NCBI GenBank assembly: GCA_022772085.1
Contig: JALFBN010000005.1
Coordinates: forward strand, 62,001 to 126,000
Reading direction: 5' to 3'
Length of the DNA: 64,000 nt
Origin: Porphyromonas sp.
Lineage (GTDB): Bacteria > Bacteroidota > Bacteroidia > Bacteroidales > Porphyromonadaceae
Part shown: positions 1,773-55,572 of the stretch, in pieces
How the letters are laid out: each line of letters starts with the position of its first letter
Position numbering within the stretch: the stretch's first letter is position 1
The notes under the pieces: generated by a model
What the model saw: only the letters and a program-made list of their open reading frames with translations
Databases searched by the model: none
What the model was told of the DNA's origin: nothing
Program-made: the position numbers and the translations under genes

Positions 1773-3611
1773 ATGAAACAGTTTCGTCTTGTTTTTTGTT
1801 GGACCTCTGTGGTGCTGTGTGCTATGGGGGTCTTTTCATTGCCTATGCTGGCACAATCCCCATCTTCTCGTCCGGATCTTCCCATAGACTATGTGACGAA
1901 CTTCAATCTTGCGGAGGATGGTACCTCTTTCATCTCAGCGGAAAATCCATCGCAGAGTGGTTATTTTTCCTATGCAGATGCTAATGCCAAGTTTGCACAC
2001 TGTACGATTGCGGGCGAAGCCTATCACCTCCCATCTTCTGCAGAGTGGAATGGATTGCTCTCAGCCTATTATGAGTATGGAGTGAACTTCATTAAGGAGG
2101 GATTGATTCAAAAGGAGATTGAAACGATCAGCTTCGGTGACGTGAAGCAGAGCTTTACGAGTGATTACTACAACTGTGGTAACGGGGTGAGCTATGCCCT
2201 GCGTCTCTGTAAGTCGGACGAATCGTTTGTGGAAGAGTTCCCCGCAGCTCCTAACAATAAATATCGATGTGCTTACAGATACGAGCGTGTGGGTGTGATG
2301 CAAACAGAGCAGGAGCCTCCTCTTGATGCCTACATTAAGATATCGGTGTGCTATCTTGGTGAAGATTTCACAGGCTCTATATCCGACATCTCCAATGAAG
2401 AGTGGTGGAAGCAACACCGAGGTAGGGTACAGGAATGTATTATCCCTATCTTGGGTCTCAAAGTAGCGGGTAAGCTCTACAACTATGCTTCGAGCGGATT
2501 TTATTGGGCTACGGATAAAGCCCACTACACGACTATATTTTACAGCGGTATCTCAACGAGTCAATTCCCCGATAAATCCAACCTCTGCAGTGTGCGCCTC
2601 TTCAGAGATAAGAAAGGGGGAGCGGTGCCTCAAGAGCCTACCCTTACGGTAACCCCCAACGTCTTCCGTATTAAAGTCGGACAGGAGCTTGTCTTGGGCA
2701 AAGACTATCATGTAGATATCACTCCTGCCGAATATGCGAACAAATATACGGTAGTTTCGGACGCCCCCTCGGTGGTAAAGGTTGAGGAGGGTACGAATAA
2801 ATTGATCGCGCTCTCCGTGGGAGAGACTTTGGTAACCTTTAAGATAAACGATACCGAGGTGAAGAAGCAAATCAGCATCAGCGTCGTTCCCAAAAACGAG
2901 GCAGTGGAAATCGTGCATGCTCCTCTTCCCAATGTCAAAGATTTTCCCGATTTGTCCCTGCTTACGGGTACGGTCAATACGGACAAGATCAGAGAGTATG
3001 AAACCTCTTTGGGGCTTCGTCTTTATGAGGCTACACGATGGGAAGCTAACGCTCACCTCTATGTGACCCCAAAAGACAAACTCGCCCAAACCAATATTTA
3101 TCGGGTGAACTACTACTACAATCCTCAGGATGGTGGTGCTCCATACATTACGGCACAGATAAACTGTGTCGGTTCTTTGGAGGAGGCTCAGCATTCAAAG
3201 AATTTTGCCGAGTGGCTCAAAACAAACGGCTTTGGGGAGCCCTTGAAGTCAATCGCTTTGAATGATGGTTCAAAGGCTCTTAGCACAACAAATCAAGATC
3301 TTTCGCTGAAATGTTGGATTGAGAAGAAGGTCTTTTTTATGATCATAGAGCCCATTCAGAAAGGGAATGGTATCGCAACGATGACTCCTAAGTCTTATCG
3401 CATTAGTCCCATTCCGGCGAATGATGTTCTTCACATCTCAGGCATGGAGATTGCTGCTCCTATATCCGTTTATACATTAGATGGCGTTTTAGTTTATCAA
3501 ACGGTCGGAAATGCGGGTGATGAACTGACGATCCCCGTCGGAGATCTTGCGGAAGGTGTGTACCTTTTGATGATCGCAGGAGAACCCCATCGTATCATGA
3601 TTGCTCGATAA
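1773..3611 (+). CDS. T9SS-secreted surface protein with Ig-like (Big_2-type) domain
   Basis: 612 residues from the ATG at 1773; a TTG just before it (1770) is a poorer start. A Sec signal peptide (MKQFRLVFCW to about residue 27, ending PMLAQ) opens the protein. Residues about 30-290 resemble no family I can name but contain repeated WATDK/SSAEWN-like elements. An immunoglobulin-like segment follows (LTVTPNVFRIKVGQELVLG to about residue 370, with VVKVEEGTNKLIALSVGETL typical of Big_2). The last ~70 residues (YRISPIPANDVLHISG ... EGVYLLMIAGEPHRIMIAR) are a type A T9SS C-terminal domain, so the protein should cross the outer membrane by T9SS and be anchored or released. It has its own promoter and a strong terminator at 3631-3671. 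Function otherwise unknown. Confidence 0.85.
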   Translation: MKQFRLVFCWTSVVLCAMGVFSLPMLAQSPSSRPDLPIDYVTNFNLAEDGTSFISAENPSQSGYFSYADANAKFAHCTIAGEAYHLPSSAEWNGLLSAYYEYGVNFIKEGLIQKEIETISFGDVKQSFTSDYYNCGNGVSYALRLCKSDESFVEEFPAAPNNKYRCAYRYERVGVMQTEQEPPLDAYIKISVCYLGEDFTGSISDISNEEWWKQHRGRVQECIIPILGLKVAGKLYNYASSGFYWATDKAHYTTIFYSGISTSQFPDKSNLCSVRLFRDKKGGAVPQEPTLTVTPNVFRIKVGQELVLGKDYHVDITPAEYANKYTVVSDAPSVVKVEEGTNKLIALSVGETLVTFKINDTEVKKQISISVVPKNEAVEIVHAPLPNVKDFPDLSLLTGTVNTDKIREYETSLGLRLYEATRWEANAHLYVTPKDKLAQTNIYRVNYYYNPQDGGAPYITAQINCVGSLEEAQHSKNFAEWLKTNGFGEPLKSIALNDGSKALSTTNQDLSLKCWIEKKVFFMIIEPIQKGNGIATMTPKSYRISPIPANDVLHISGMEIAAPISVYTLDGVLVYQTVGNAGDELTIPVGDLAEGVYLLMIAGEPHRIMIAR

Positions 3612-4213: not shown

Positions 4214-5497
4214 ATGAAAAGATTTAGCAGTATTTGCCTTTTGCTTACCACCCTGCTCCTCGTAGGATGCAATGGAAGTCAAAAGCCTAAAACTCAGCTC
4301 ACGCTCAGCGCAAGCAGTTTGACCATGGTCGCCAATGGTGAAGACAAGGTTACCTTTACCGTTAAGGATCAAGTGGGACAGGATTATACCACCAAAGCCA
4401 CCTTCAAGGTAAATGATCAAAAGATCGACAAGCCTGAGTGGACGACGTCTACGCCCGGGGAATATACCGTTGTGGCTTTCTTTGGAGACAACAAGTCTAA
4501 TGAAATCAAGATTGTTGCTCGTGAAGCCGGTGCTAAGATAACGGCCATTGTTCTCAAGGTGGATAAAACGATTGTTCTGGCCGATGGTGTGGATAAGATT
4601 ACCCTCAAAGCCCATGATGCTGCCAATCCCGAGGGAGAGGCTCTCAGCAATGTGATCTTCTTTGCCGATGGCAAGAAGTTGGATGGCAATACCTTCTCAA
4701 CCAAAACGGTAGGGAAGGTGAAGCTCAAGGCTCAGTACAAGGAGTTGGTTTCTCCGGAAGTTGCGGTGAGTGCTGTGACGGATGATGGCTTTACTCCCAC
4801 GGCACACGTCCTCTTGGAAGACTGGACCGGTACGTGGTGTCCCTATTGCCCTCGAGCTCATGTTGTAATTGAAGATGCGATTAAAGATCCGGAAGGCAAG
4901 TTCATCTCACTGGCCTATCACGTTAGTTATAGTTCAACTCAAGGAATTGATCCTTTTGATGTTGTTCGATTGATCGCTCCTCTGTATCGGAAAGAAGGTA
5001 TTGGTGGGTTCCCTACGATCAGAGCGAATAGAACCTATAATGCCGTACAAGATTATGCAAAACTCAAGGGGCAGTTCAAGGATCTAAAAGCAGAACTTGG
5101 TATCACCCTCTCTGTTAAGCTGGACAACGGTAAGGTTGTTGCAGACTATAGTGTTCGTCGTAAAAATACCTTTGCTCCCTCAGGAGAACTCAAGGTGGCT
5201 GTTGCTCTTTACGAAAACGATCTTCATGCCGATCAGGCCAATGCAGTATTCCCCGAGAAGGGTAATCCGATCCGTAATCTCCAGTTCGACCGTATACTTC
5301 GAGCTTACAAAAACGACAATCCTCTAGGAGATGCATTCAAGTTCGGTGGCGAGCATATCTATACTGCACAGCATGCTTTCTCAATGGATTCCTCTTGGAC
5401 TTTGAATAATTGTGGTGTTGCCGTGATTGTGTTGGACGATAAGGGACGAGTTCTCAATGCTCAGAGTGCTAACGTAGGCGAAAGCAAAGGTTACTAA
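4214..5497 (+). CDS. Omp28-related surface lipoprotein with thioredoxin-like CPYC site
   Basis: 427 residues. A lipoprotein signal ends in the lipobox LLVGC (Cys19). Residues about 25-190 look like two Ig-like or invasin-like beta modules (SLTMVANGEDKVTFTV and KTIVLADGVDKITLKA are parallel openings). From about residue 195 the Omp28 fold starts: VLLEDWTGTWCPYCPRA gives a redox CxxC (WCPYC), then GGFPTIRANR has the cis-Pro segment expected in thioredoxin folds. Omp28 proteins are outer membrane proteins of Porphyromonas and relatives. The next gene, a TlpA-like thioredoxin, starts 18 bp downstream, so a shared extracytoplasmic redox task is likely. The substrate is unknown. Confidence 0.85.
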   Translation: MKRFSSICLLLTTLLLVGCNGSQKPKTQLTLSASSLTMVANGEDKVTFTVKDQVGQDYTTKATFKVNDQKIDKPEWTTSTPGEYTVVAFFGDNKSNEIKIVAREAGAKITAIVLKVDKTIVLADGVDKITLKAHDAANPEGEALSNVIFFADGKKLDGNTFSTKTVGKVKLKAQYKELVSPEVAVSAVTDDGFTPTAHVLLEDWTGTWCPYCPRAHVVIEDAIKDPEGKFISLAYHVSYSSTQGIDPFDVVRLIAPLYRKEGIGGFPTIRANRTYNAVQDYAKLKGQFKDLKAELGITLSVKLDNGKVVADYSVRRKNTFAPSGELKVAVALYENDLHADQANAVFPEKGNPIRNLQFDRILRAYKNDNPLGDAFKFGGEHIYTAQHAFSMDSSWTLNNCGVAVIVLDDKGRVLNAQSANVGESKGY

Positions 5498-40303: not shown

Positions 40304-41581
40304 ATGATGCCTAATTTGAAATCCTTCCGCAGTGCTCCTTGGGTGCTCGTAACCTTGCTCTCACTTGCCTTTGGGGGCGTTGGTTGTCGGCGAGGAGGTG
40401 ATCCTTATACCCACTCCGGACGTGCCGAAGGACCCACTTATATCACATTTGACTTGGGACTCCGCTCCCAGGCTGATGGCACCTATTCGATCAATCAAGA
40501 TGCAACTGATCGAGAGGATGAGGTGCGTGAGGTACGCATTCTGCTCTTTCAGCAGGGTGCTATACGAGCCAATCTCTATTACAGCAAGTCGAATCCCGCA
40601 CAAAATAGCCTTGCCTATACCGAGTCCCCTTCGGGTGCTACGGCTACGTTTCGAATAGAGAATCCCGGAATCTACGATATGGTTGTGATCGCCAATGAAT
40701 CGTTGTCATTCAATAATGACGTGGTGACCCGGCTTCGTAGTATTGCCACCCGAGAGCAACTCAATACATTGCCTCGCATTCGCTTTTTTGATCCCGCCTC
40801 TATGCCAATAGGAGGTATCGATCGTCCTACACTTCCTTCGGGATTACCTCGCCTTTTATGCCCCCTGACTGCCGAATATCATGGCGTAAATATGTCCATT
40901 GCTGCAACGCAAGCCAACCCTCATCGAGTGTTTTTGCCTACCTCTACCGGTAAGGTTGAATTGTTGCGTGCAGTGGCTAAGGTAGAGCTTATCATCAAGG
41001 ATATTGTCCATAAAAAGGGCTCCGGTTATGAATGGATTGCCCCCGACACCTTTGGACGTATTCTCAAAATAGGGGGAGTGGCTTTGGCAAAAACATATCC
41101 TCTAATGCCCCTCAATGCCTATACTCCTAGAGAGGTTATCCCTCTTCCCACTACGGAAAATCCTGTCGGACTCCTTACGGGGATTGCTTTTCCTGAGACG
41201 CCCGATGCCAAGTTCGTTGTACAGAAACAACAATCGAAGGATTGGAGTATCGGAGGTCTTCAACCGCTGGACTACAAGATCTTCTTTTACATCCCTGAAA
41301 CTCTTATCCCGGAGGGTCATACCCCGAGTGAGCAACCCCGACTTCTGTTTAGTTACAGCAATATGGAAGGGGATTGGTGGGCTCCTTCGAAGAGTACCCC
41401 TATTGATACAGAGCGTGATATCACAAATAATAACCCCAAGGCATCGGATTACTTGAGAGAAGTCGCACGTCTTACCTCCGTCCCGATGAAATCTTACGGA
41501 GCGCATAGCGTTTATCGCAATAGTTGCTACCGTATAACCGTCTCTTTTGACGCCAATTATTCCAATCCTGAGAGACCTTAG
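40304..41581 (+). CDS. Fimbrillin-fold accessory lipoprotein (Mfa3-like position)
   Basis: 425 residues from ATG ATG at 40304 (an upstream extension overlaps the anchor gene and is rejected). The lipobox is FGGVGC (Cys at about 28). The N-terminal strand region TYITFDLGLRS and EDEVREVRILLFQQG are typical of the fimbrillin superfamily, and ELLRAVAKVELIIKDI is the second shared element. In the P. gingivalis mfa locus the gene after mfa2 encodes the tip-side accessory protein Mfa3, so a tip or adaptor role is likely here, though sequence identity to Mfa3 was not checked. Confidence 0.75.
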   Translation: MMPNLKSFRSAPWVLVTLLSLAFGGVGCRRGGDPYTHSGRAEGPTYITFDLGLRSQADGTYSINQDATDREDEVREVRILLFQQGAIRANLYYSKSNPAQNSLAYTESPSGATATFRIENPGIYDMVVIANESLSFNNDVVTRLRSIATREQLNTLPRIRFFDPASMPIGGIDRPTLPSGLPRLLCPLTAEYHGVNMSIAATQANPHRVFLPTSTGKVELLRAVAKVELIIKDIVHKKGSGYEWIAPDTFGRILKIGGVALAKTYPLMPLNAYTPREVIPLPTTENPVGLLTGIAFPETPDAKFVVQKQQSKDWSIGGLQPLDYKIFFYIPETLIPEGHTPSEQPRLLFSYSNMEGDWWAPSKSTPIDTERDITNNNPKASDYLREVARLTSVPMKSYGAHSVYRNSCYRITVSFDANYSNPERP

Positions 41582-41609
41582 AGTTTATACCTATATCTTG
41601 CTGTATAAG

Positions 41610-44600
41610 ATGTTTAGAATCAAATTTTTAAGAGGGTTTTGTGCCCTCATGTTTCTTTTGGCATTTTTGCCTTTATCGTTTGAGGTGCATGCACAACAAC
41701 CCTCCGATATTAGGATCGTACCTAAGGTTACAAATGCTACTTGTGAAAGTAACGGAGAGATCACAGCAGAGGTGACTTCCATAAATAATTTATACACGAT
41801 CAAAAGTGTCGTATATACTTATGAAAATGAAGCAACGCACAGCCTTGTCTCAAGTAAAGACACCTCTCAACCAATGGTTACAGGGTTGCCTGCCGGGAGC
41901 TATACACTTCGGGTCGGAGTGCTTTTCAATAATGGCAATCGGGTTAATGCGACTTACACGGGCATTAAGGTAACCTCCTCTTATAGGATGCCTGTGATCT
42001 CTATTAAGGAACAGCGCCCCACCCTCAAGGGCTACAATGAACCTACGGGTATGATCGGCTTGCGTGCGGCCAATGGTAGTGCTCGTAATTATACGGCAAG
42101 GCTTCTCAAAACTCCTGTTGGCTATACAGGTTACAAGGAATTTACCTATTCGGCAACAAGTGATTGGAAGTATTTCTATAATCTCCCCGCCGGTAAGTAT
42201 CAAGTGCAAGTTTCAGACGAGTGTGTTTCCTATCCTGCCGTAGAGGTCGAGGTTACGACCTCCTCAACAAGTTTATATGGTTCCATTGGAGACAACGACC
42301 TTGTGCCCATACGTGATCATTGCGGATGGTATCGGGTTTGGTCTCCAACCAATAGCAACTTCCCCTACTATACCTCCTTGGATACGATCGCCAAGTACTA
42401 TGATTTTACGTTTGTTAGTCAAGAGGTACAGGAAAAGAATCCTTCATCTATTGTATGGTATGATATGAATACAATCTCCCGTACCTTGGATAATGGTAAT
42501 GTAGTCGCCTATTATTCAGGGCCGTATTCGCCTCTTTGCTTCAAGCTCCCTGATGGGCTCTCTTGGTATAAGATGGCACGTAAGCCGAGTCGAGAGAGAC
42601 CTCGTCTTGTTTACCGTTTGAAGGGTACGGATTTACAAAGTTCCTATGAACTAGATTATTTTAAGGAAAGTAGTTGGATTCTACATGTAGTTGACGAATC
42701 TGATGGCCCTTGTGCAGATTATAAACGAAAACTCTATTTGTATGACTCTTATCGCGTTGACTTTTGCCCTCCTATTACAGTGACTGTGGCAGAGGCGACT
42801 GCTCCTAATGTGATTTTAGAGCAGATCCAGTTAGGATTGGAGAACAAGAGTAGTGATAAAGCTATTCTTCTTAATACCCCTTTTTCTCGGGAGAAGTCAT
42901 ACATCTTTACTTATAGAGACGGCAATGGTGATGAGATCAAAAATACCTATCCCGGACTTATTCCTCAAGTCTTCACAAATTCATATGCTAGTTATGACAA
43001 TTGTATGGGGATTGTGAAGAACTCTGTTCATATATATTCTCAAGTCAATATGGGATCTAGCGTGCAAAACGTTGCACTGGATGGCTATACCATTTGTTTG
43101 AAAAGTGCCCCTGCGGGGTATGAGCCTCCCTTTGAACATTCCCTGCAGGTGGGGAAGCCTTATAAAGTTCCTGCTGGATTTAGTACAGGGAATTTCTTTC
43201 CTTTCTCGAGTGACGTCTTATCCAATCCAAATTACCCTCATAAAAACGGTAAGAGTGTTTTGCTCCCTAAAGGTAATTACATCTTTACAGTGACAGATCC
43301 TTGCGGACGTACGAAGGAGCTCATAGAAACCCTCCATGACGCGACAGATCGATATTCAATAGGAACAAAAGAGCTGAAGCCCATGGTTGTCGTTAAGGAA
43401 TGTGGGCGTATGCGTATCTATCCATTTGCCGGAGGTCATACGGATATTATTCTTAAAAATGGTACTTCATACGATACTCCCTATGCCTACATAACGAGCT
43501 ATCCTAATGGATTGAATTCGAGTGATGTACGTGTATTTAATGGATCTTCTTACTCCAATTCTTTCTATGTGCGGGCTCCCGAAAGTAGTTCTTCGGTTAA
43601 GCCTAAAGATATTTACTTTGATATGCCCTTGGTACAAGGGAGCTTGAAAATAATGACTACCTTCACGAATTCACATTATTCGTGTATGCCGACGGTTACG
43701 GTCAATCTTGAGAATGCCAATCTTTCGTATGACCGAGATAGTTATGTGGGGTATAAATGTCCATCGGGTACATATGCCTACTTTTTTATTCAGCCGAAGA
43801 ATTACGTGGGACATTTGGATATCGAGATTCGTCCGGTAAAAGGGGGAGAGCCGATTTACAAGGCTCATGATGTAGATGTATCCAAAGGGGTAGAGGTGCA
43901 CATTAATCGTACCACTTCAAATCCGATTCAGGATGATGCTTATATGCTCTATCTCAAAGACCTTAAGTGTCTTAACGATAATAAGAATGGTACACCTATT
44001 TCTCTTTATGATTTGAGCTCGACGAGCATCGTGCGTACAACACGTGTCAAGACGAAGTATTGCGAAGGAGAGCCGATCACACTGGAGTGTGTGTCGTTAG
44101 GCGGTAAGGTGATCTATAAGTGGCGTTTCCCTGATGGCACAGAACAAGACGGGCGCGTAGTGACTATCCCTTCCTCCGAAGCCAAGAAGCATTCGGGTAA
44201 ATATACTTTGACAGCAACCAATGTTATTTGCGAGGGATCGCCTACGAGCATCACAATCGATTTTGAGCTCTCAGTGGCACCTCCGATTCTTTGGTGGAAT
44301 TCCAAGGCGAAAAATGCCAATTGGTTTGATAGGAATAACTGGCTGAATAAGGAGGGCGTATCGGTTAATGCGATTCCGGCAGCTTGTACAACGGTGCATA
44401 TCCCTTCAGAGGTGGACCACTACTATCCCGACCTTGATCCCACAATTTCGATACAGGGGACCTATGGTGCTGCGGAGTGTAACGATGTTTACTTCCACTA
44501 CGGTAGTCAGTTGGGCCGTCCTCAGTTACTACGTTATAGTCGTGCTTATGTCGATTACAACTTCGGCAAGATGCAGACGGGTGGTACTGTTGTGGCTCAT

Positions 44601-46139
44601 GCCGAACCCCACTTCCCTCAAAGCGATAAGCAACTGATGGCGCGTGACCGATGGTACATGCTTGCTACACCGCTGAAAAATATCCTCTCGGGAGACTTTG
44701 GTTTGGCAGGCTATCCTATGACCTATCAGCGTCACTTTAAATCAGGAATCGCTACAACTTCGGGACTCTCTGAGGCCTCTTTCGAGAAACCTGTGAACAG
44801 TTTGATCGAAAACATGAGTTCGTTCAATCACGCTATTGCCCTCAAGGTAGCAGGCCAGAGTGCCAAAGTGGGGTATAACGACCACAAAAACCTCAATGGC
44901 CTCAACGGAATTATCCGTATTCCCTATTATCTCAATGATGCGGTGGGAGCCTACTATCCGCTTCATAAGTATATCCCCGAAACGAATACCTCGGCATTCC
45001 GCTACTACAATATGGAGACCCTCGCTCCCATGAGCAAGGTCAATCGCTTCACTCGCAAGCCCGAAGAGGATTTCCGCTTCGTCTTCGAGACGGGTGGCAA
45101 AAAGGCGATCGGTGCTATTTCAGTGGCCGGCACTTCCGTAGAGGGTTATGCATTCCAACTTACGGGAGACACCAATTCGGAGTTACGCATGGTGGGCAAT
45201 CCCTTTATGAGTGCCATTGACTTTGATCGTCTCAAAGAGGTAAATAGTACGCTTATTGAGCCCTACTACTACATATTTACCGATAATACGTGGAAGGTCT
45301 ACTACTCGGGCGTTACCTCTCCCTCCGGCACCTTACAAAAAGAGATTGCTCCGCTTCAAGCAATTGTGATCAAGAAAAAAGCGACAGGTGCCCTGCTTTT
45401 CCCAACGGCAGGAGAGAAGAATGTACTCCTTGCGCCCAATAAGCAGTTGAGTGTAAAGAGCCATTCCATGACCGAGCCATCCGATGGGATCCGTCGTGTG
45501 TCTGTTATCCCCAGCAACAGTGCAGGGCACGGAGCTGAGTCCGTATTGCTCCCGGATACCGATCTTGCACCCGCTCCTGCACTATTTTATCCCGCTATTG
45601 ACGAGGTACCCACCGTTTATTTTGTCGATACTGAAACTGGTACGCCTAACGTGATTCAGTCGGGGGCTTATCGCAGTGTTGTACCTATGGGAGTACACAG
45701 TTCTGTCGTTGGCACTGTTCATTTGGACTTTTCTTCCCTGACGCAAGGTCTCTTCACCCGAGTTGTTCTCTATGATAGAGAGACATGCCGAGAGCAAGAT
45801 CTCCTTGCAAATCCGTATTATTTATATCAAAATAGAGCGAATGAGGGTACGCGCTTCGAGCTCCGTATGGAGTATCCCGGTGTGAAGTCTGTGGATACGC
45901 CCCTCGCTGATGGAGATTTGCTTCGAGTGAGTCCGACAGAGGCCGGTTATAGAGTGGAAAGTGCTGTTGCCCTGAAAGGTTTTTCTTTGTGGGCAGTAGA
46001 TGGAAAACTTTTGGGTAAAAGTTTTGGAATTGATGCCCTCGAATTTTTCGTGGATCGAGCCTACTGTCAGTCGGTTGTTATCCTCAAGGTTCATTTGGCT
46101 GACGGTTCTACGCTAACACGCAAGCTCCCAAAACTTTAA
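41610..46139 (+). CDS. Large T9SS-type surface protein in the fimbrial operon, candidate tip adhesin
   Basis: 1509 residues from the ATG at 41610, 28 bp after the previous stop. A signal peptide (to about 31, VHAQQ) is followed by many beta modules: TNATCESNGEITAEV at about 40 resembles gliding-motility/SprB-like repeats, and an Ig-like domain lies at about 815-895 (YCEGEPITLECVSLGGKVIY). The ~1000-1430 region resembles cargo of PorV-dependent secretion (NPFMSAIDF). The last ~75 residues look like a degenerate T9SS C-terminal domain (FSLWAVDGKLLGK, ending LTRKLPKL). The analogous P. gingivalis gene mfa5 has a VWA domain; I see no MIDAS motif here, so this is a different adhesin. A strong terminator follows. 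Confidence 0.75.
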   Translation: MFRIKFLRGFCALMFLLAFLPLSFEVHAQQPSDIRIVPKVTNATCESNGEITAEVTSINNLYTIKSVVYTYENEATHSLVSSKDTSQPMVTGLPAGSYTLRVGVLFNNGNRVNATYTGIKVTSSYRMPVISIKEQRPTLKGYNEPTGMIGLRAANGSARNYTARLLKTPVGYTGYKEFTYSATSDWKYFYNLPAGKYQVQVSDECVSYPAVEVEVTTSSTSLYGSIGDNDLVPIRDHCGWYRVWSPTNSNFPYYTSLDTIAKYYDFTFVSQEVQEKNPSSIVWYDMNTISRTLDNGNVVAYYSGPYSPLCFKLPDGLSWYKMARKPSRERPRLVYRLKGTDLQSSYELDYFKESSWILHVVDESDGPCADYKRKLYLYDSYRVDFCPPITVTVAEATAPNVILEQIQLGLENKSSDKAILLNTPFSREKSYIFTYRDGNGDEIKNTYPGLIPQVFTNSYASYDNCMGIVKNSVHIYSQVNMGSSVQNVALDGYTICLKSAPAGYEPPFEHSLQVGKPYKVPAGFSTGNFFPFSSDVLSNPNYPHKNGKSVLLPKGNYIFTVTDPCGRTKELIETLHDATDRYSIGTKELKPMVVVKECGRMRIYPFAGGHTDIILKNGTSYDTPYAYITSYPNGLNSSDVRVFNGSSYSNSFYVRAPESSSSVKPKDIYFDMPLVQGSLKIMTTFTNSHYSCMPTVTVNLENANLSYDRDSYVGYKCPSGTYAYFFIQPKNYVGHLDIEIRPVKGGEPIYKAHDVDVSKGVEVHINRTTSNPIQDDAYMLYLKDLKCLNDNKNGTPISLYDLSSTSIVRTTRVKTKYCEGEPITLECVSLGGKVIYKWRFPDGTEQDGRVVTIPSSEAKKHSGKYTLTATNVICEGSPTSITIDFELSVAPPILWWNSKAKNANWFDRNNWLNKEGVSVNAIPAACTTVHIPSEVDHYYPDLDPTISIQGTYGAAECNDVYFHYGSQLGRPQLLRYSRAYVDYNFGKMQTGGTVVAHAEPHFPQSDKQLMARDRWYMLATPLKNILSGDFGLAGYPMTYQRHFKSGIATTSGLSEASFEKPVNSLIENMSSFNHAIALKVAGQSAKVGYNDHKNLNGLNGIIRIPYYLNDAVGAYYPLHKYIPETNTSAFRYYNMETLAPMSKVNRFTRKPEEDFRFVFETGGKKAIGAISVAGTSVEGYAFQLTGDTNSELRMVGNPFMSAIDFDRLKEVNSTLIEPYYYIFTDNTWKVYYSGVTSPSGTLQKEIAPLQAIVIKKKATGALLFPTAGEKNVLLAPNKQLSVKSHSMTEPSDGIRRVSVIPSNSAGHGAESVLLPDTDLAPAPALFYPAIDEVPTVYFVDTETGTPNVIQSGAYRSVVPMGVHSSVVGTVHLDFSSLTQGLFTRVVLYDRETCREQDLLANPYYLYQNRANEGTRFELRMEYPGVKSVDTPLADGDLLRVSPTEAGYRVESAVALKGFSLWAVDGKLLGKSFGIDALEFFVDRAYCQSVVILKVHLADGSTLTRKLPKL

Positions 46140-48549: not shown

Positions 48550-48866
48550 CTTTTGTTGAACTTTTGAGTGTTATATCCGTAGCCCTGTCGTAGTGTATCC
48601 GTTACGTAAGAGGTTGAAGCAGAGGTCTACAAATGAACCTTAATCTATCGATGAGAGGTCCTCTTGTTGTATAGGGTTGGGTGTTGAAAATAGGACACTT
48701 GAGCTTGCTCATGGGCAGGTTGTTGGTTCGACCTATTGTAGAGAAACGCTTTCGAGATAAGGAATACAATAAAAGATTATAAACCGCTCCGTGCATTGCA
48801 CTCTTCCTATTCGCCGAGCAACCGTAAGGATATGTGCAGGGTATAGGGGCACAAACAACAAAGAAG

Positions 48867-51800
48867 ATGAAAGAAATTTACTTAAGACGATTACTTCTGT
48901 CTGCACTCTTTCTTTTGTCCGCCTTGGGAATCTCTTCCCGTAGTGCGCTGGCTCAAGGAGGAGCAACAGAGACTTTCCCGGTCTCTATCGTAATAGAACC
49001 CGCTACGGGTGCCGGTACCGTGGAGGTCTCTTCCGGGTATTGGCCCAAAAAGGTTTATACCGAAGAGGAGCTCAAGGCGATCCCCAGGGGGACTACGATT
49101 GATGTTACCCCCAAACCTGCTGCCGGGTACGCCATCGGGTTGATGTCCCTCGGAGGAAAGAAACAAGAGGGGCGTAGCTTTTCCACAACGGTTCGTTCTG
49201 CCATCGAAGTGACCATTACCTTCGTGAAGGGATACAAGGTTACTGTAGATCCTACGGGTATTACAGGCTTTCGTGCCTATGCCCAGGGGACTTATGGCTT
49301 CTCTCCATTGAATGAACTCAAGGAAGCCGACTTGGTAAGTATTGCACCTCTCTCCGAGACTTTCTTTGTCTTCACTCCCGTAGCCGGTAAGAAGGTGACC
49401 AAAGCGGAGGCGGTGCTCTCCACGGGCGAGACGGTTGCTCTAACACCCAGGAATGGATACTCTCTTGGTCAAGGTTTTGTCTATACGGGCAAAGAGGCTG
49501 ATGCCACGATTAAAGTTACCATTGCCGACGATGTAGTGGGCAAAATTACGGTGGATCAATCGAATATCACCGGTTATCACGCCTATGTCAAGAGTTCTTC
49601 TTTTTATAACAAAGAACTGAAAGCAGAGGATTTGGGAGCCGTATCCGTCGGTACAAAGGTTTTCTTTAAAATTGATGCCCCCGAAGGGAAGAAAGTTTCT
49701 AAGGTAGAGGCTGTGATCGGATCTAAGACCATTGCCCTGACTCCTTATGATGATTATATGATGGGTGCCGGCTTCCTCTATACCGTAGAGGAGGGCGATG
49801 CTACAATCAAGGCTACTGTAGAAGAGCATAAAACCTATAAACTTACAATCGATAAGCAGAATATAACGGAGGTAAAGATCTATAAGAAGGGAGGATACTT
49901 CTACAATTCGGAGGTGGCAGAGGCTGATCTGAATGCCGTTGATGCCGATGCCGAGCTGTTTTTTGTGTTTACCATTGCCACTGATAAGGCGATCAAAGGG
50001 GTAGATGCCGTACTTGCATCGGGAGAAAAGGTTGCTCTCAAGCCCCACTCCGATGGGCTCAAAGGAAATGGTTTTATCTACAAGGTACAAGCAAGCGATG
50101 CTACCATTACACCCAATGTTGTGGATAACAAACCCTGCTCCATTACGCTTAAAGCCCCCGAAGGTGCCCCGGCCGTTCGTATCGAAAAGACGACATCCAG
50201 TTTTTATTGGACAGGGACCGAGATTACCGATCTCACCCGTATCGAATTGGGTACTAAGATCCGTATCTACCTCCCCATGGAGTCAAAAGATTGGGTTCTT
50301 GACCAAATCTTGGTAGATGGAAATGCTGATCTTTCGGTTCTCTCCGACTACTCGGGAAGGTATATTGAGTACGTTATGGAAAAAAGTTTTGAGATTGAGA
50401 CTCGATTTGTCAAGGGTGTTGCTCTAAACTTCCTTATCAAGCCTGCTATGGTCGATGGTGAAAAATACTTTGAATCACTATGGATACAGGATGCAGCCAC
50501 TGGTAAAGAACTCAATAACAAGGCTCTTCGTAAGAATACCAAATTACACCTCTGCTATATCGCCAGCGAAGCATATAAGCTGACCAAAGTTGTTCCCGTA
50601 TTGGATCTTGAAGAGCAAGAACCGTTAGAGGCTAAGGATGGAAGTTATGATGCCGGAGATGGTACGAAGGTTAACTACAAGTACTATGAAATCCAAGTTG
50701 CCGAAACAGATGCTCTCGTACACCTCTATTTTGCAAAAGCGGGTTCCGATGAAGAAGAAAATTTCGATGTGAAAATCGAAGATATCGAGGATGAAGCTGC
50801 CGAAGCCGGTTGCGGTATCGAACTTGCTCCTGAGGCTGAAGACGAAGGCGTATATGCCAAAGGTACTAAGGTTACTATCAAAGTAAAATTGGGTACGGGG
50901 TATACACTTAAATCTATCAAGGCCGTCAATGATGAAGAGCAAGAGGTTGCTCTGACGAAAGTTTCGGATCTGGAATACAACTTTATGATCCAAAGCAACG
51001 TAACGATTACGCCTGTGTTTGAAAAGAGTAGCTCACCTGCTGTATGTAGAGCAACGGTAGAGAAGACTCCTACAACGGCTCCTGACTTTACTTTCGAGGT
51101 GAATACGACTCCCGATGATGGGGTTTGGACGGGTAAGGTAGTCGATGCCGATAAGATCCCTACCGGTAGTCTGATACGCATCATTATCCCGAAAGAGACG
51201 AAAGAGTGGACGCTCTATTCCATGGAAATTGACGGACAAAAGCCAACCATTGAATATGACCATCGCAAAGAAGGTACGAGCTCCGTTCCCCAAAAGTACT
51301 TCTATGTAGAGAAGACTGTCACAGCAGACTTTACCATTAAGGCGACTTTTGGTAAACCTCTGCACATCACGGCTGAGTTTACCGAAGAGTCTGATAGCAA
51401 TAATATCAGTATCTATGATGAAACAGGTACAGATGAAATCCGCGAACCTCTCCATACGAATACAACCTATCGTGCATATATCAATGCAGCAACGGGTTAT
51501 AAGATCGATCGCGTTGTAGAACTCAAGGGTACGACAGAGTCTCCCCTGACTCTCGAAAAGGAAGTGGACGGAGAAAGTATTTATTACTACGTTGTATGTA
51601 AACTCCAAGAGTCTGATATGGAACTCAAGGTTTACCTTTCTCCCGAAAATGCTCCGATTACAGAAACTCGTAAGATTGCGGTTGTGATCAATCCTGCCGA
51701 AGCCAAGGCTGCCGGTTGTGCAATCGAACTCTCCAATGCCAACGAAGATGGCTCATTCAATGTAGGTCAAAAGGTTGTTGTCATGGTGACCGAAAAGGGT

Positions 51801-52421
51801 GGTTACAAGTTGAAGAGCCTCATGTTAGGTACGATGGGGATCAAGCGAGATGCTTCAGGAGTCTTTAGCTTCCAAGTAACGGAAAATGAAACACTCACGG
51901 CTACTTTTGTTCGTGACGTGAAGACGTTCAAAGTCAATGTAGAGGGTATTGATGCAGCAGCTAAGGCTGCCGGTTGCAAAGTGACCCTGTCTCCTGCGGC
52001 TGCTTCTTATATGTACGAAGAAGGTGCTACCGTAACGGCTATGATTACCCTTGGCAAGGGATATAAGAGCGCAACGCTGACAGCGAATAATGGTATTACG
52101 CTTACGAAGAAGAGTGATCTCGAATATACCTTTAAGGTGACAGGTCCGGTAACGCTTACCGCTACCTTTACTAAGGATCTTGCTATGGATGAAGTGGCTT
52201 CTACGATGGCTAAGGTTTATCCTAATCCTGCTCGTGAATACGTAGTTGTAGAGGGTGTCACTCCTTGGGCAGTCGTTGAAGTGTATGCGCTCGATGGTGT
52301 TGTCGTTCTTCGCAAGCAGGCTGATGCTGCCGGCGTTGTTCGTTTGGAACTCGCAGGCATAACCGCCGGAGAGTACATCATACGCGCCGGAGCAATGGTT
52401 GAACGTATCCTGATTCAATAA
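48867..52421 (+). CDS. Large InlB-like repeat surface protein with T9SS domain
   Basis: 1184 residues from the ATG at 48867. A signal peptide (about 1-30, SALAQ) precedes roughly ten tandem beta modules of about 80-105 residues. Three of them begin VDPTGITG, VDQSNITG and IDKQNITE and share AxAVLxSGEKVAL-type cores and an SDATIxxxV-type ending. They resemble the divergent InlB B-repeat (Listeria-repeat) type. The last ~75 residues (MAKVYPNPAREYVVVEGVTPW ... YIIRAGAMVERILIQ) form a clear T9SS C-terminal domain. Probably a rod-like surface adhesin. Codon usage is like its neighbours. A strong terminator follows (52485-52531). Confidence 0.85.
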   Translation: MKEIYLRRLLLSALFLLSALGISSRSALAQGGATETFPVSIVIEPATGAGTVEVSSGYWPKKVYTEEELKAIPRGTTIDVTPKPAAGYAIGLMSLGGKKQEGRSFSTTVRSAIEVTITFVKGYKVTVDPTGITGFRAYAQGTYGFSPLNELKEADLVSIAPLSETFFVFTPVAGKKVTKAEAVLSTGETVALTPRNGYSLGQGFVYTGKEADATIKVTIADDVVGKITVDQSNITGYHAYVKSSSFYNKELKAEDLGAVSVGTKVFFKIDAPEGKKVSKVEAVIGSKTIALTPYDDYMMGAGFLYTVEEGDATIKATVEEHKTYKLTIDKQNITEVKIYKKGGYFYNSEVAEADLNAVDADAELFFVFTIATDKAIKGVDAVLASGEKVALKPHSDGLKGNGFIYKVQASDATITPNVVDNKPCSITLKAPEGAPAVRIEKTTSSFYWTGTEITDLTRIELGTKIRIYLPMESKDWVLDQILVDGNADLSVLSDYSGRYIEYVMEKSFEIETRFVKGVALNFLIKPAMVDGEKYFESLWIQDAATGKELNNKALRKNTKLHLCYIASEAYKLTKVVPVLDLEEQEPLEAKDGSYDAGDGTKVNYKYYEIQVAETDALVHLYFAKAGSDEEENFDVKIEDIEDEAAEAGCGIELAPEAEDEGVYAKGTKVTIKVKLGTGYTLKSIKAVNDEEQEVALTKVSDLEYNFMIQSNVTITPVFEKSSSPAVCRATVEKTPTTAPDFTFEVNTTPDDGVWTGKVVDADKIPTGSLIRIIIPKETKEWTLYSMEIDGQKPTIEYDHRKEGTSSVPQKYFYVEKTVTADFTIKATFGKPLHITAEFTEESDSNNISIYDETGTDEIREPLHTNTTYRAYINAATGYKIDRVVELKGTTESPLTLEKEVDGESIYYYVVCKLQESDMELKVYLSPENAPITETRKIAVVINPAEAKAAGCAIELSNANEDGSFNVGQKVVVMVTEKGGYKLKSLMLGTMGIKRDASGVFSFQVTENETLTATFVRDVKTFKVNVEGIDAAAKAAGCKVTLSPAAASYMYEEGATVTAMITLGKGYKSATLTANNGITLTKKSDLEYTFKVTGPVTLTATFTKDLAMDEVASTMAKVYPNPAREYVVVEGVTPWAVVEVYALDGVVVLRKQADAAGVVRLELAGITAGEYIIRAGAMVERILIQ

Positions 52422-53055: not shown

Positions 53056-55572
53056 TTATTTCTTTGTCGTTTTAGAGGCTTTTTTTCCTGTTTTGCAGCA
53101 GGTTTTGCCAGACTTAGCGCAATCCTTATCGTTTGTGCAAGGCTTGCCATCTTTCATTGTATCGCAGCAGTTGGCTTTCTTATTGGCAGCCGCTTTTTTC
53201 TCACAGCACTCCTTTTTGCCATCTTTGCATGCTTTGGATCCCTTTTTGTCCTTGCAGCAATCCTTCTTTGTGGCTCCCTTATCACATTGGCTTTGCTTTT
53301 TGTCACAAGTTTTTGCGCCTTCTTTGCTGCATTCCTTCTTTACGGCACCCTTATCGCATTGGTCCTGTTTCTTATCACAGGTCTTTGCTTCTGTCTTACA
53401 GCAAGCTTTCTTGCCTGCGTGCATAAGGTCACGTTGCTCTCCTTTTACGAGGTTTAGCTCCTTGATGATATGAGGCATCTTGGCCCACTTGTCAATCATG
53501 AAGAGGACGTAACGGATATCTACACTGATGGTACGTTGGAGGTCGGGTTCAAACTCAATGTCCCCACTCATGGCTTCCCAGTTACCATCGAAGGCAAGAC
53601 CGATAAGTTCTCCATTGCCATTGAACACAGGGCTACCGGAGTTCCCCCCGGTGATGTCGTTGTCAGAGAGGAAACAGAGACGGAGATGATCGCCTACACC
53701 GTATTGGCCGAAGTCTTTGCTACGAAGGAGAGAGAGTATTTCGGGTTGTACGGCAAATTCACTGCTCGTAGGGTCTTGTTTTTCGAAGACTCCTTGTTCG
53801 GTCGTATAGTAATTGTACCAAGCACCATCTTTGGGAGCATAACCCTTGATAGAGCCATAGCTCATACGCATGGTGAAGTTGGCATCCGAAGGCATCTGGC
53901 GGTTGGGATCCATAATGCGAGAGGCAGCGAAGTATTCACGCTTACCCTTTTCTATGTTTGCCATCACGTCACCCGCACTTGTTTGAGCCTTGATGATCGT
54001 GGGGAGTACGCTGTTCACGAGTTCGATTGCAGGATCCTTTTCGAGCATTTTCTTCTGCTTGTCGCTGGAGAGTGAGAGGAAGTCCATTACCTTATCTTCG
54101 TAAGGAACGATACTTTTTTGGAATACGTATTCAGCATATTTAGCGGTGCTGCCTTTGAACTTCTTGTCAATAACCTTGAAGATGTCAGGTTGGTTTTCCG
54201 CACTTACACGTTGACGTACAATATCGAGCATGGCAGGAAGTACCTTTGCATCAAGAGTTGGGAGGTAATCTTTGTAAGCATTTTGGAGATAAGTCTTGAA
54301 CTCTGCCATCGCTTCAGGTTGTACGCGACCAATCGAATTGATGTTGCGAGCGAGACGGATGATCTCCGTACCACCCCAAAGAGTTTCGAATAGATAGGTG
54401 AGATCCTTGGTGATAGCGGCACTTTGTGCATAGTCTGCCTTGAGCCCTGGGAGGATATGTCCGTAGGTTTCTTGAGTGTTGTTTTTGGCAATCCATGCTT
54501 CGAAGGCTTGTTCTTCGGCACGCTTGCGGTTTACAACGTCAAGGTTCTTAAGACCACGGTTCATGCCGATAGAGTTTTTCCAATAATTCGCACTTTGAGC
54601 ATACTTACTGGCATACTTGATACGGGTTGCTTGGTCGGCTTCCATAGCCTCTTTCCAGATGGCTTGCTTAGCACCACGCACTTCGATGCGAGGAGAGTTT
54701 TCGTTGTTTATTACATCTTCTACACCCCAAGAGGTCAGATAGCGGTTTGTGCTGCCGGGGAAGCCGATCGTCATGGCGTAGTCTCCTTCACGGTACCCAT
54801 TGAGAGATACGGGGGCATACGAAATGGGCTTGTAGGGCTTATTGTTTTTGTTGTAGAGTGCTGGCTTGTTGTCAGCATCTGCATATACACGGAATACGCT
54901 GAAGTCTCCTGTATGACGTGTCCACATCCAGTTGTCGGTATCCCCACCAAATTTACCCACAGAGCTGGGGGGAGCCATTACCATACGCACGTCTTGGAAT
55001 ACATCGTAAACCACAACATAGTACTTATTTCCGGCGTAGTAAGGAGTTACTTCGCCTACAACAGTCGTACCCTTGGTGTACTCAGCGTTGATCTTGTCGC
55101 TAAGATCTTCGATGATTTGCATACGTTCCATTTCGTTCTTGGCATCCTTTACGGCAGCTTCGATACGAGGAGTTACGTCGATGATCTCACGGAGGTAGCG
55201 CACGCTAAGTCCCGGGATGGGAAGTTCCTCAGCTTGATTGTTGCAACGAAATCCGTCACGGAGGTAGTCATGATCCACGGTACTTTGGCTTTGGATAGAC
55301 TCAAAACCGCAGTGATGGTTGGTGAAGATAAGGCCTTCGTTGGATACCGTGATACCGGTACATCCACCTCCGAAGATCACAACCGCACTCGCAACGCTGG
55401 GCTGACCGAGGCTGTAAAGTTGCTCGGGAGAGAGTTTAAACCCGAGCTCTTTCATGCGCTCATAGTTCTGCTGATTGAGTTCGTTAAGTAGCCACATTCC
55501 TTTATCTGCCATGGCCGTAGAGCCAATACCGCAGAGAAGAGCTACAGAAAGAAGAATTCTTTTTAGCTTCAT
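53056..55572 (-). CDS. S46 family dipeptidyl-peptidase (DPP7-like) with Cys/Lys-rich tail
   Basis: 838 residues; the known S46 enzymes are about 710-720. After a signal peptide (to about 21) the catalytic core shows GGGCTGITVSNEGLIFTNHHCG (His) and ITGGNSGSPVFNGNG (Ser at about 645). The pocket residue is Gly in FDGNWE, as in DPP7 (broad, hydrophobic P1) rather than Arg as in DPP11. After about residue 712 a 125-residue tail follows with 18 Cys and very many Lys, containing two near-copies 24 residues apart (AKTCDKKQDQCDKGAVKKEC and AKTCDKKQSQCDKGATKKDC, starting at about 729 and 753). The frame is open throughout. No T9SS domain is seen. Expected location is the periplasm, where it removes dipeptides in peptide feeding. 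The tail's role is unknown. Confidence 0.92.
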   Translation of the reverse strand: MKLKRILLSVALLCGIGSTAMADKGMWLLNELNQQNYERMKELGFKLSPEQLYSLGQPSVASAVVIFGGGCTGITVSNEGLIFTNHHCGFESIQSQSTVDHDYLRDGFRCNNQAEELPIPGLSVRYLREIIDVTPRIEAAVKDAKNEMERMQIIEDLSDKINAEYTKGTTVVGEVTPYYAGNKYYVVVYDVFQDVRMVMAPPSSVGKFGGDTDNWMWTRHTGDFSVFRVYADADNKPALYNKNNKPYKPISYAPVSLNGYREGDYAMTIGFPGSTNRYLTSWGVEDVINNENSPRIEVRGAKQAIWKEAMEADQATRIKYASKYAQSANYWKNSIGMNRGLKNLDVVNRKRAEEQAFEAWIAKNNTQETYGHILPGLKADYAQSAAITKDLTYLFETLWGGTEIIRLARNINSIGRVQPEAMAEFKTYLQNAYKDYLPTLDAKVLPAMLDIVRQRVSAENQPDIFKVIDKKFKGSTAKYAEYVFQKSIVPYEDKVMDFLSLSSDKQKKMLEKDPAIELVNSVLPTIIKAQTSAGDVMANIEKGKREYFAASRIMDPNRQMPSDANFTMRMSYGSIKGYAPKDGAWYNYYTTEQGVFEKQDPTSSEFAVQPEILSLLRSKDFGQYGVGDHLRLCFLSDNDITGGNSGSPVFNGNGELIGLAFDGNWEAMSGDIEFEPDLQRTISVDIRYVLFMIDKWAKMPHIIKELNLVKGEQRDLMHAGKKACCKTEAKTCDKKQDQCDKGAVKKECSKEGAKTCDKKQSQCDKGATKKDCCKDKKGSKACKDGKKECCEKKAAANKKANCCDTMKDGKPCTNDKDCAKSGKTCCKTGKKASKTTKK

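Follow-up and report, generated by a model that had tools for sequence, protein, structure and literature searches.

Among S46 dipeptidyl-peptidases, a C-terminal tail has been described for DPP7 of Porphyromonas endodontalis (MER278904), which the portion of Nishimata et al. 2014 devoted to it presents as an 818-residue protein with a 109-residue tail holding 28 Lys and 13 Cys (PMC4262410). According to that same portion, the enzyme appears in cells as a 105-kDa band, a truncated form lacking the tail is active in vitro and cleaves Met-Leu-type substrates, the full-length recombinant protein could not be expressed, and H87, D223 and S645 are the positions of the catalytic triad (PMC4262410). 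Where that paper deals with the origin of the tail, its authors consider it unique and suggest that it arose through an accidental change from stop to Gly, given that codon 711 (GGA) could have come from TGA (PMC4262410). The P. gingivalis-type DPP7, as captured in NCBIfam model NF053519, has the whole catalytic core in common with the protein studied here, whereas the model ends at position 708 and has no tail; P. gingivalis DPPs are placed in the periplasm by the part of a further paper that treats their location (PMC8048996). A precedent in kind is offered by bufferins and other MNIO-modified metallophores, which the pertinent part of one paper describes as small, Sec-exported, Cys-bearing and periplasmic, with fusions to other domains also known (PMC12452194).

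We analyzed a 64,000-nucleotide stretch of a Porphyromonas sp. genome (hereafter the window), in which the following features make up a tailed DPP7.

53056..55572, minus strand: dpp7, S46 dipeptidyl-peptidase with C-terminal tail, an ATG to TAA frame of 838 residues
55507..55572, minus strand: signal-peptide-like N-terminus, about residues 1-22, by eye MKLKRILLSVALLCGIGSTAMA, followed by DKGMW
53452..55509, minus strand: S46 catalytic core, residues 22-707 (Pfam PF10459)
53059..53442, minus strand: Lys/Cys-rich tail, residues 711-838, with the stop codon at 53056-53058
53252..53388, minus strand: two tandem 24-residue units within the tail (TRF)
53092..53181, minus strand: most conserved segment of the tail, around residues 798-827, KKANCC.TMKDGKPCT.DKDCAKSGK.CC, from a gap-free pairwise alignment with the P. 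endodontalis-type tail

The enzyme is a DPP7 of peptidase family S46. Its frame matched Pfam PF10459 at 809.7 bits over residues 22-707 (cut-off 22) and the NCBIfam Dpp7 equivalog model NF053519 at 1248.6 bits (cut-off 1200; match ending at residue 709), which bears out the S46 identity given to it by a first-pass annotation made from the letters alone, and H87, D223 and S645 were invariant in an alignment of 27 rows. A second S46 protein from the same genome, 38% identical over residues 4-707, lacks a tail. We rejected the protein as a T9SS cargo, as no Pfam sorting-domain match was found over its 838 residues at E up to 1.

Because the core match ends at residue 707 (Pfam) or 709 (NCBIfam), we place the start of the tail near residue 711 (base 53442); the tail seen at first pass is present, and its earlier boundary at 53415 was slightly late. 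In frame with the core, as had been claimed, residues 716-838 (123 residues) contain 18 Cys and 38 Lys, as compared with 5 Cys in the preceding 715 residues. The near-identical repeat units reported 24 residues apart were recovered by TRF as a period of 72 bases (24 residues; 1.9 copies, 78% match, 53252-53388), with units KTCDKKQDQCDKGAVKKEC and KTCDKKQSQCDKGATKKDC differing by eye at 3 of 19 residues. A six-frame scan for 40-residue stretches with at least 4 Cys and at least 8 Lys returned 10 in the window, all inside the dpp7 tail. Taken alone, the tail matched nothing in Pfam or NCBIfam at E up to 1 and no PDB sequence at E up to 10, and it contains no aromatic residue, a single His, and no CxxC, CxC or CP pair. 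Its GC content (0.44, with 0.48 at third positions) is near that of the core (0.48 and 0.52), and this base composition gave no sign of horizontal gain.

Such a fusion was thought at first pass to be undescribed, a view that the 2014 paper refutes, since its account of P. endodontalis already puts a DPP7 tail of like kind in print for that one species (PMC4262410), and the window protein is a second, larger case of it. Locus L003, from a genome that we take to be P. endodontalis (G005), encodes 818 residues, with GGA at codon 711 and, from residue 710 on, 13 Cys and 28 Lys, and thus appears to match the published protein in length, Cys, Lys and junction. The L003 protein is 86% identical to the window protein, and the window protein, an orthologue, likewise carries its Lys/Cys-rich extension after residue 710 (Lys710-Gly711), while differing in its longer tail (838 residues in all), its 18 Cys and its tandem 24-residue units.

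Searching the genus revealed an S46 match in 25 of 26 genomes, and among the 25 DPP7 orthologues compared, five ended in Cys/Lys tails: the window (L001, 18 Cys), L003 (13), L004 (9), L005 (11) and L011 (7). One further orthologue (L018) had a short end with 2 Cys and the other 19 stopped at about residue 709-710. Tails of this kind, whose absence from every related strain had been raised as a possibility, were thus found on four other DPP7 genes, and the new observation is that they recur across several species, beyond the single published case. Farther afield, among the best 80 of at least 594 S46 matches, ten loci were listed with more than 25 residues past position 700, and none of them had Cys there. 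The best tree (25 rows) needs two changes for the tails, while a single tailed clade is not rejected (p-AU 0.33), so that the tree does not show one origin. Profile searches had limited reach: profile A1, built from the five tails, matched 4 of 26 genus genomes; it missed G016, whose tail is itself one of the A1 rows, as well as the stand-alone genes of G011, G013, G015 and G019 discussed below, and across 393 genomes of the order it matched the window only. Profile A4, run at E up to 0.5, failed to recover even the tail of the window, so its misses are uninformative. An L005-type tail used as query gave one weak match, L117, which has internal stops and of which the first 600 bases were examined. 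A sequencing frameshift adding the tail, likewise raised as a possibility at first pass, was not found. A sequencing artefact is very unlikely, because in-frame Cys/Lys tails end DPP7 in four other genomes and because one tailed relative agrees with the published protein seen near full size in cells.

The tails change quickly and are nonetheless constrained as proteins. Between the window and L003, pS was 0.65 and pN 0.06 in the core, and 0.80 and 0.26 in the tail (100 codons); for the L004 and L005 tails the values were 0.84 and 0.25 (58 codons). Non-synonymous change in the tails is therefore about 5 times faster than in the core, yet far below synonymous change. In the comparison of the window with L003, the synonymous sites of the tail approach saturation while its non-synonymous sites stay well short of it, as under constraint at the protein level. 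All 13 Cys of L003 aligned with Cys of the window tail, as was the case in 3 of 500 shuffles, while Cys agreement between L004 and L005 was no better than chance (128 of 500) and agreement across the two sub-clades was mostly not significant (19 to 256 of 500). Total alignment scores exceeded all 500 shuffles for window/L003, L004/L005 and window/L005, and were reached by 9 shuffles for L003/L005, 56 for L003/L004, 10 for window/L011 and 237 for L005/L011 (each of 500); with dipeptide-preserving shuffles, scores between tails of the two sub-clades were reached by about 61-181 of 2000.

Lys/Cys-rich sequences also occur outside S46 enzymes. Scanning 904,423 bases of loci for such stretches outside S46 frames revealed a 65-residue frame with a signal-like N-terminus in Saccharicrinis aurantiacus (L056), and this protein, as query against 393 Bacteroidales genomes, gave 29 matches in 27 genomes. 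On reading, 16 of the matches were small proteins that begin with a signal-like segment and have a Lys/Cys-rich body, and the other 13 were dropped as being of another kind. At the family level (38 genomes), stand-alone proteins were found in G015 and G033; profile A3 produced 43 rows in 25 of the 38 genomes, mostly over the signal-peptide part, and of the loci examined (L147, L148, L150 and L152) two were kept. The G015 protein as query gave 11 matches (5 kept, six dropped), adding G019, G011 and G013 for a family total of five genomes, and the window tail as query gave six, namely itself, L185 (kept) and four that were dropped. Four of these genomes (G011, G013, G015 and G019) are Porphyromonas with a tail-less DPP7. 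A stand-alone gene was detected in 4 of 20 tail-less genomes versus 0 of 5 tailed ones, which is consistent with replacement and is not significant (Fisher p 0.55; sensitivity is likely weak).

The stand-alone proteins tested matched no Pfam or NCBIfam family above cut-off. A model of a Cu/Zn efflux transporter (NF033936) recurred as a weak match, in 6 of 10 proteins of one set and 1 of 10 of another, far below its cut-off, and was disregarded. We found no literature on stand-alone Lys/Cys-rich exported proteins in open-licence papers. In the nine examined, the mature part had no aromatic residue, no CxxC and at least one CC pair. Like the window tail, the Bacteroidales proteins are dominated by Lys and Cys, with CC pairs and with Cys spaced 5-8 apart in many places, and the nine examined share its lack of aromatics and CxxC; unlike it, they have a signal-like N-terminus of their own, no enzyme and other gene neighbours. 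For those tested, these features point to a kind of small, presumably exported, Lys/Cys-rich protein that has no Pfam or NCBIfam model.

We compared tails and stand-alone proteins by local alignment score against 2000 dipeptide-preserving shuffles per pair, in 24 comparisons. For the window tail, the score was reached by 0 shuffles with L172 (G011), 1 with L185 (G405), 9 with L147, 21 with L173, 44 with L152 and 658 with L170, and the pairs with L172 and L185 stand out after allowing for 24 comparisons. The best partner of the L003 tail was L170 (4 of 2000), then L173 (23 of 2000), that of L005 was L170 (19 of 2000) and that of L004 was L172 (66 of 2000), while none of the six L011 pairs, compared separately, was convincing. 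Low-complexity sequences can converge. In the case of the window tail, common descent with the stand-alone proteins, presumably by gene fusion, is likely; in that of the other tails it is unproven. This link is the new part of the picture and is moderately supported.

The neighbours of the stand-alone genes were scanned at all of the 16 order-level loci but L122, L127 and L146, and they offer hints of stress sensing and redox. A sensor-kinase gene lies beside 7 of the 16 (L118, L119, L121, L123, L130, L131 and L139) and a flavodiiron-type gene beside 3 (L120, L125 and L126); in addition, L129 adjoins a tricorn-type protease and L134 a DUF5128 gene, and at L128 the single neighbour frame scanned belonged to no family. 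The Porphyromonas stand-alone genes have gyrase B (L172), a flavodoxin gene (L170), or sialidase-like and pyruvate:ferredoxin oxidoreductase genes (L169) nearby.

We tentatively read the tail as a fused module like the stand-alone Lys/Cys-rich Bacteroidales proteins, kept as a part of the enzyme and most likely serving as a periplasmic thiolate metal buffer, a reading to which we would give slightly less than an even chance. Metal binding, offered at first pass along with charge tethering and disulfide links, thus stays the favoured role. Once exported, the enzyme would expose to the periplasm a thiol-rich, aromatic-free polycation, long and probably disordered. Thiolate clusters there could bind metal ions of soft or borderline character (zinc, copper, iron), and lysines would offset the thiolate charge, by analogy with metallothioneins. 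What would result is a metal buffer tethered to an abundant periplasmic enzyme, such that a main peptidase of these amino-acid-fermenting oral bacteria would also handle periplasmic metal.

Metallothioneins resemble the tail in combining many Cys with many Lys at low complexity. They differ in that CxC is a hallmark of the classical ones, and the lack of CxC in the window tail counts against a role in metal binding; classical bacterial metallothioneins are also cytoplasmic. The tail is not a described metallothionein, since no profile of Pfam or NCBIfam matched it at E up to 1, nor a bufferin, as it matched no such profile and no MNIO gene was found in the 31 window frames scanned (out of 46 with 180 residues or more) or in the neighbours scanned around stand-alone genes (a weak match of L126 to BufA2 had E 0.42). 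No metal-handling gene was found beside the window dpp7 or among those scanned neighbours. A wider version of the metal-buffer reading, which we consider possible and rather doubtful, is that exported, aromatic-free Lys/Cys-rich peptides are widespread in Bacteroidales, buffer metals or thiols in the periplasm and are in some cases encoded next to sensor-kinase or flavodiiron genes, and that in one Porphyromonas lineage a peptide of this sort became fused to the dipeptide-producing peptidase; if true, the fusion would tie nutrient peptidolysis to metal or redox buffering.

The same composition could serve other ends. It is unlikely that the tail acts chiefly by charge, binding the peptidase to an anionic partner (LPS, surface glycan or peptidoglycan) while its Cys cross-link: although the five tails carry net charges of +10 to +20 (+20, +17, +12, +17 and +10) and Lys is the commonest residue of the window tail, a pure tether needs no 7 to 18 Cys, the Cys of the window tail are conserved in its nearest relative, and stand-alone proteins of like kind have no enzyme to tether.

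A thiol or disulfide role, with the tail as an oxidant sink or as a source of mixed or intermolecular disulfides through which the enzyme would be cross-linked or stabilised, strikes us as improbable as well. Its many Cys favour such a role, as do the flavodiiron-type and sensor-kinase genes beside 3 and 7 of the 16 order-level stand-alone genes, the flavodoxin gene near L170 and the pyruvate:ferredoxin oxidoreductase gene near L169; this neighbourhood evidence is indirect, however, and the scanned neighbours of the window dpp7 are not redox genes. A thioredoxin-like site is disfavoured because the window tail has no CxxC (as is the case for aromatic residues, CxxC is absent from four of the five tails), which leaves the thiol exchange proposed at first pass, with an Omp28/TlpA redox group as supplier, without support in this form. 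Of that group, an Omp28 gene is present (4214-5497, PF11551), about 48 kb from dpp7 and with no link to the tail found, while no TlpA-type domain was detected by Pfam in the 31 frames scanned out of the 46 that reach 180 residues. Odd Cys numbers in four of the five tails (13, 9, 11 and 7) also suggest that a tail alone is not fully disulfide-paired.

Cys-Pro motifs are linked with haem binding, and the L004 and L005 tails have six Cys-Pro pairs each, so that these bacteria, being haem-dependent, might bind haem taken up by them through the tail. The window, L003 and L011 tails have none, and because three of five tails thus lack CP pairs, haem as a general ligand is disfavoured; with no aromatic residue and a single His in the window tail in addition, we regard haem binding as very improbable.

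Least probable is the published suggestion that DPP7 merely lost its stop codon and gained a meaningless tail (PMC4262410, in its account of the P. endodontalis enzyme), which fits the activity of the truncated enzyme in vitro, the possible derivation of GGA from TGA and the GGA at codon 711 in both the window and L003, and which is contradicted by tails in five genomes, constraint at the protein level, the stop codons of the 20 tail-less relatives (TAA in 16, TAG in 4, TGA in none), the three downstream frames of those 20 genes (each with at most 8 Cys and at most 15 Lys over a maximum of 120 codons, or over fewer at three short flanks) and L011, tailed yet without the Gly711 of L001, L003, L004 and L005. 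Recurrence, constraint and the lack of anything similar downstream in tail-less relatives therefore make an accident unlikely, and the tail appears to be a real, kept protein part and not accidental read-through, which would overturn the published guess for P. endodontalis DPP7.

Some minor observations concern gene arrangement. Six of the seven sensor histidine kinase genes (those at L118, L119, L121, L123, L130, L131 and L139) are divergent to the small gene, and the small genes of L120, L125 and L126 sit between phospholipid-synthesis genes and the flavodiiron-type gene. At L128, the Lys/Cys-rich gene directly adjoins another small frame (1807-2175, minus strand), which has a signal-like start and no Pfam match. 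Within the window, a 1530-residue frame with a TTG start at 41547-46139, for which Pfam gave no match at E up to 1e-4, adjoins Mfa-type fimbrial genes, and next to dpp7 on the opposite strand, 48834-52421 encodes a 1195-residue protein that has InlB-B-type repeats and, below cut-off, a weak match to a type IX sorting domain.
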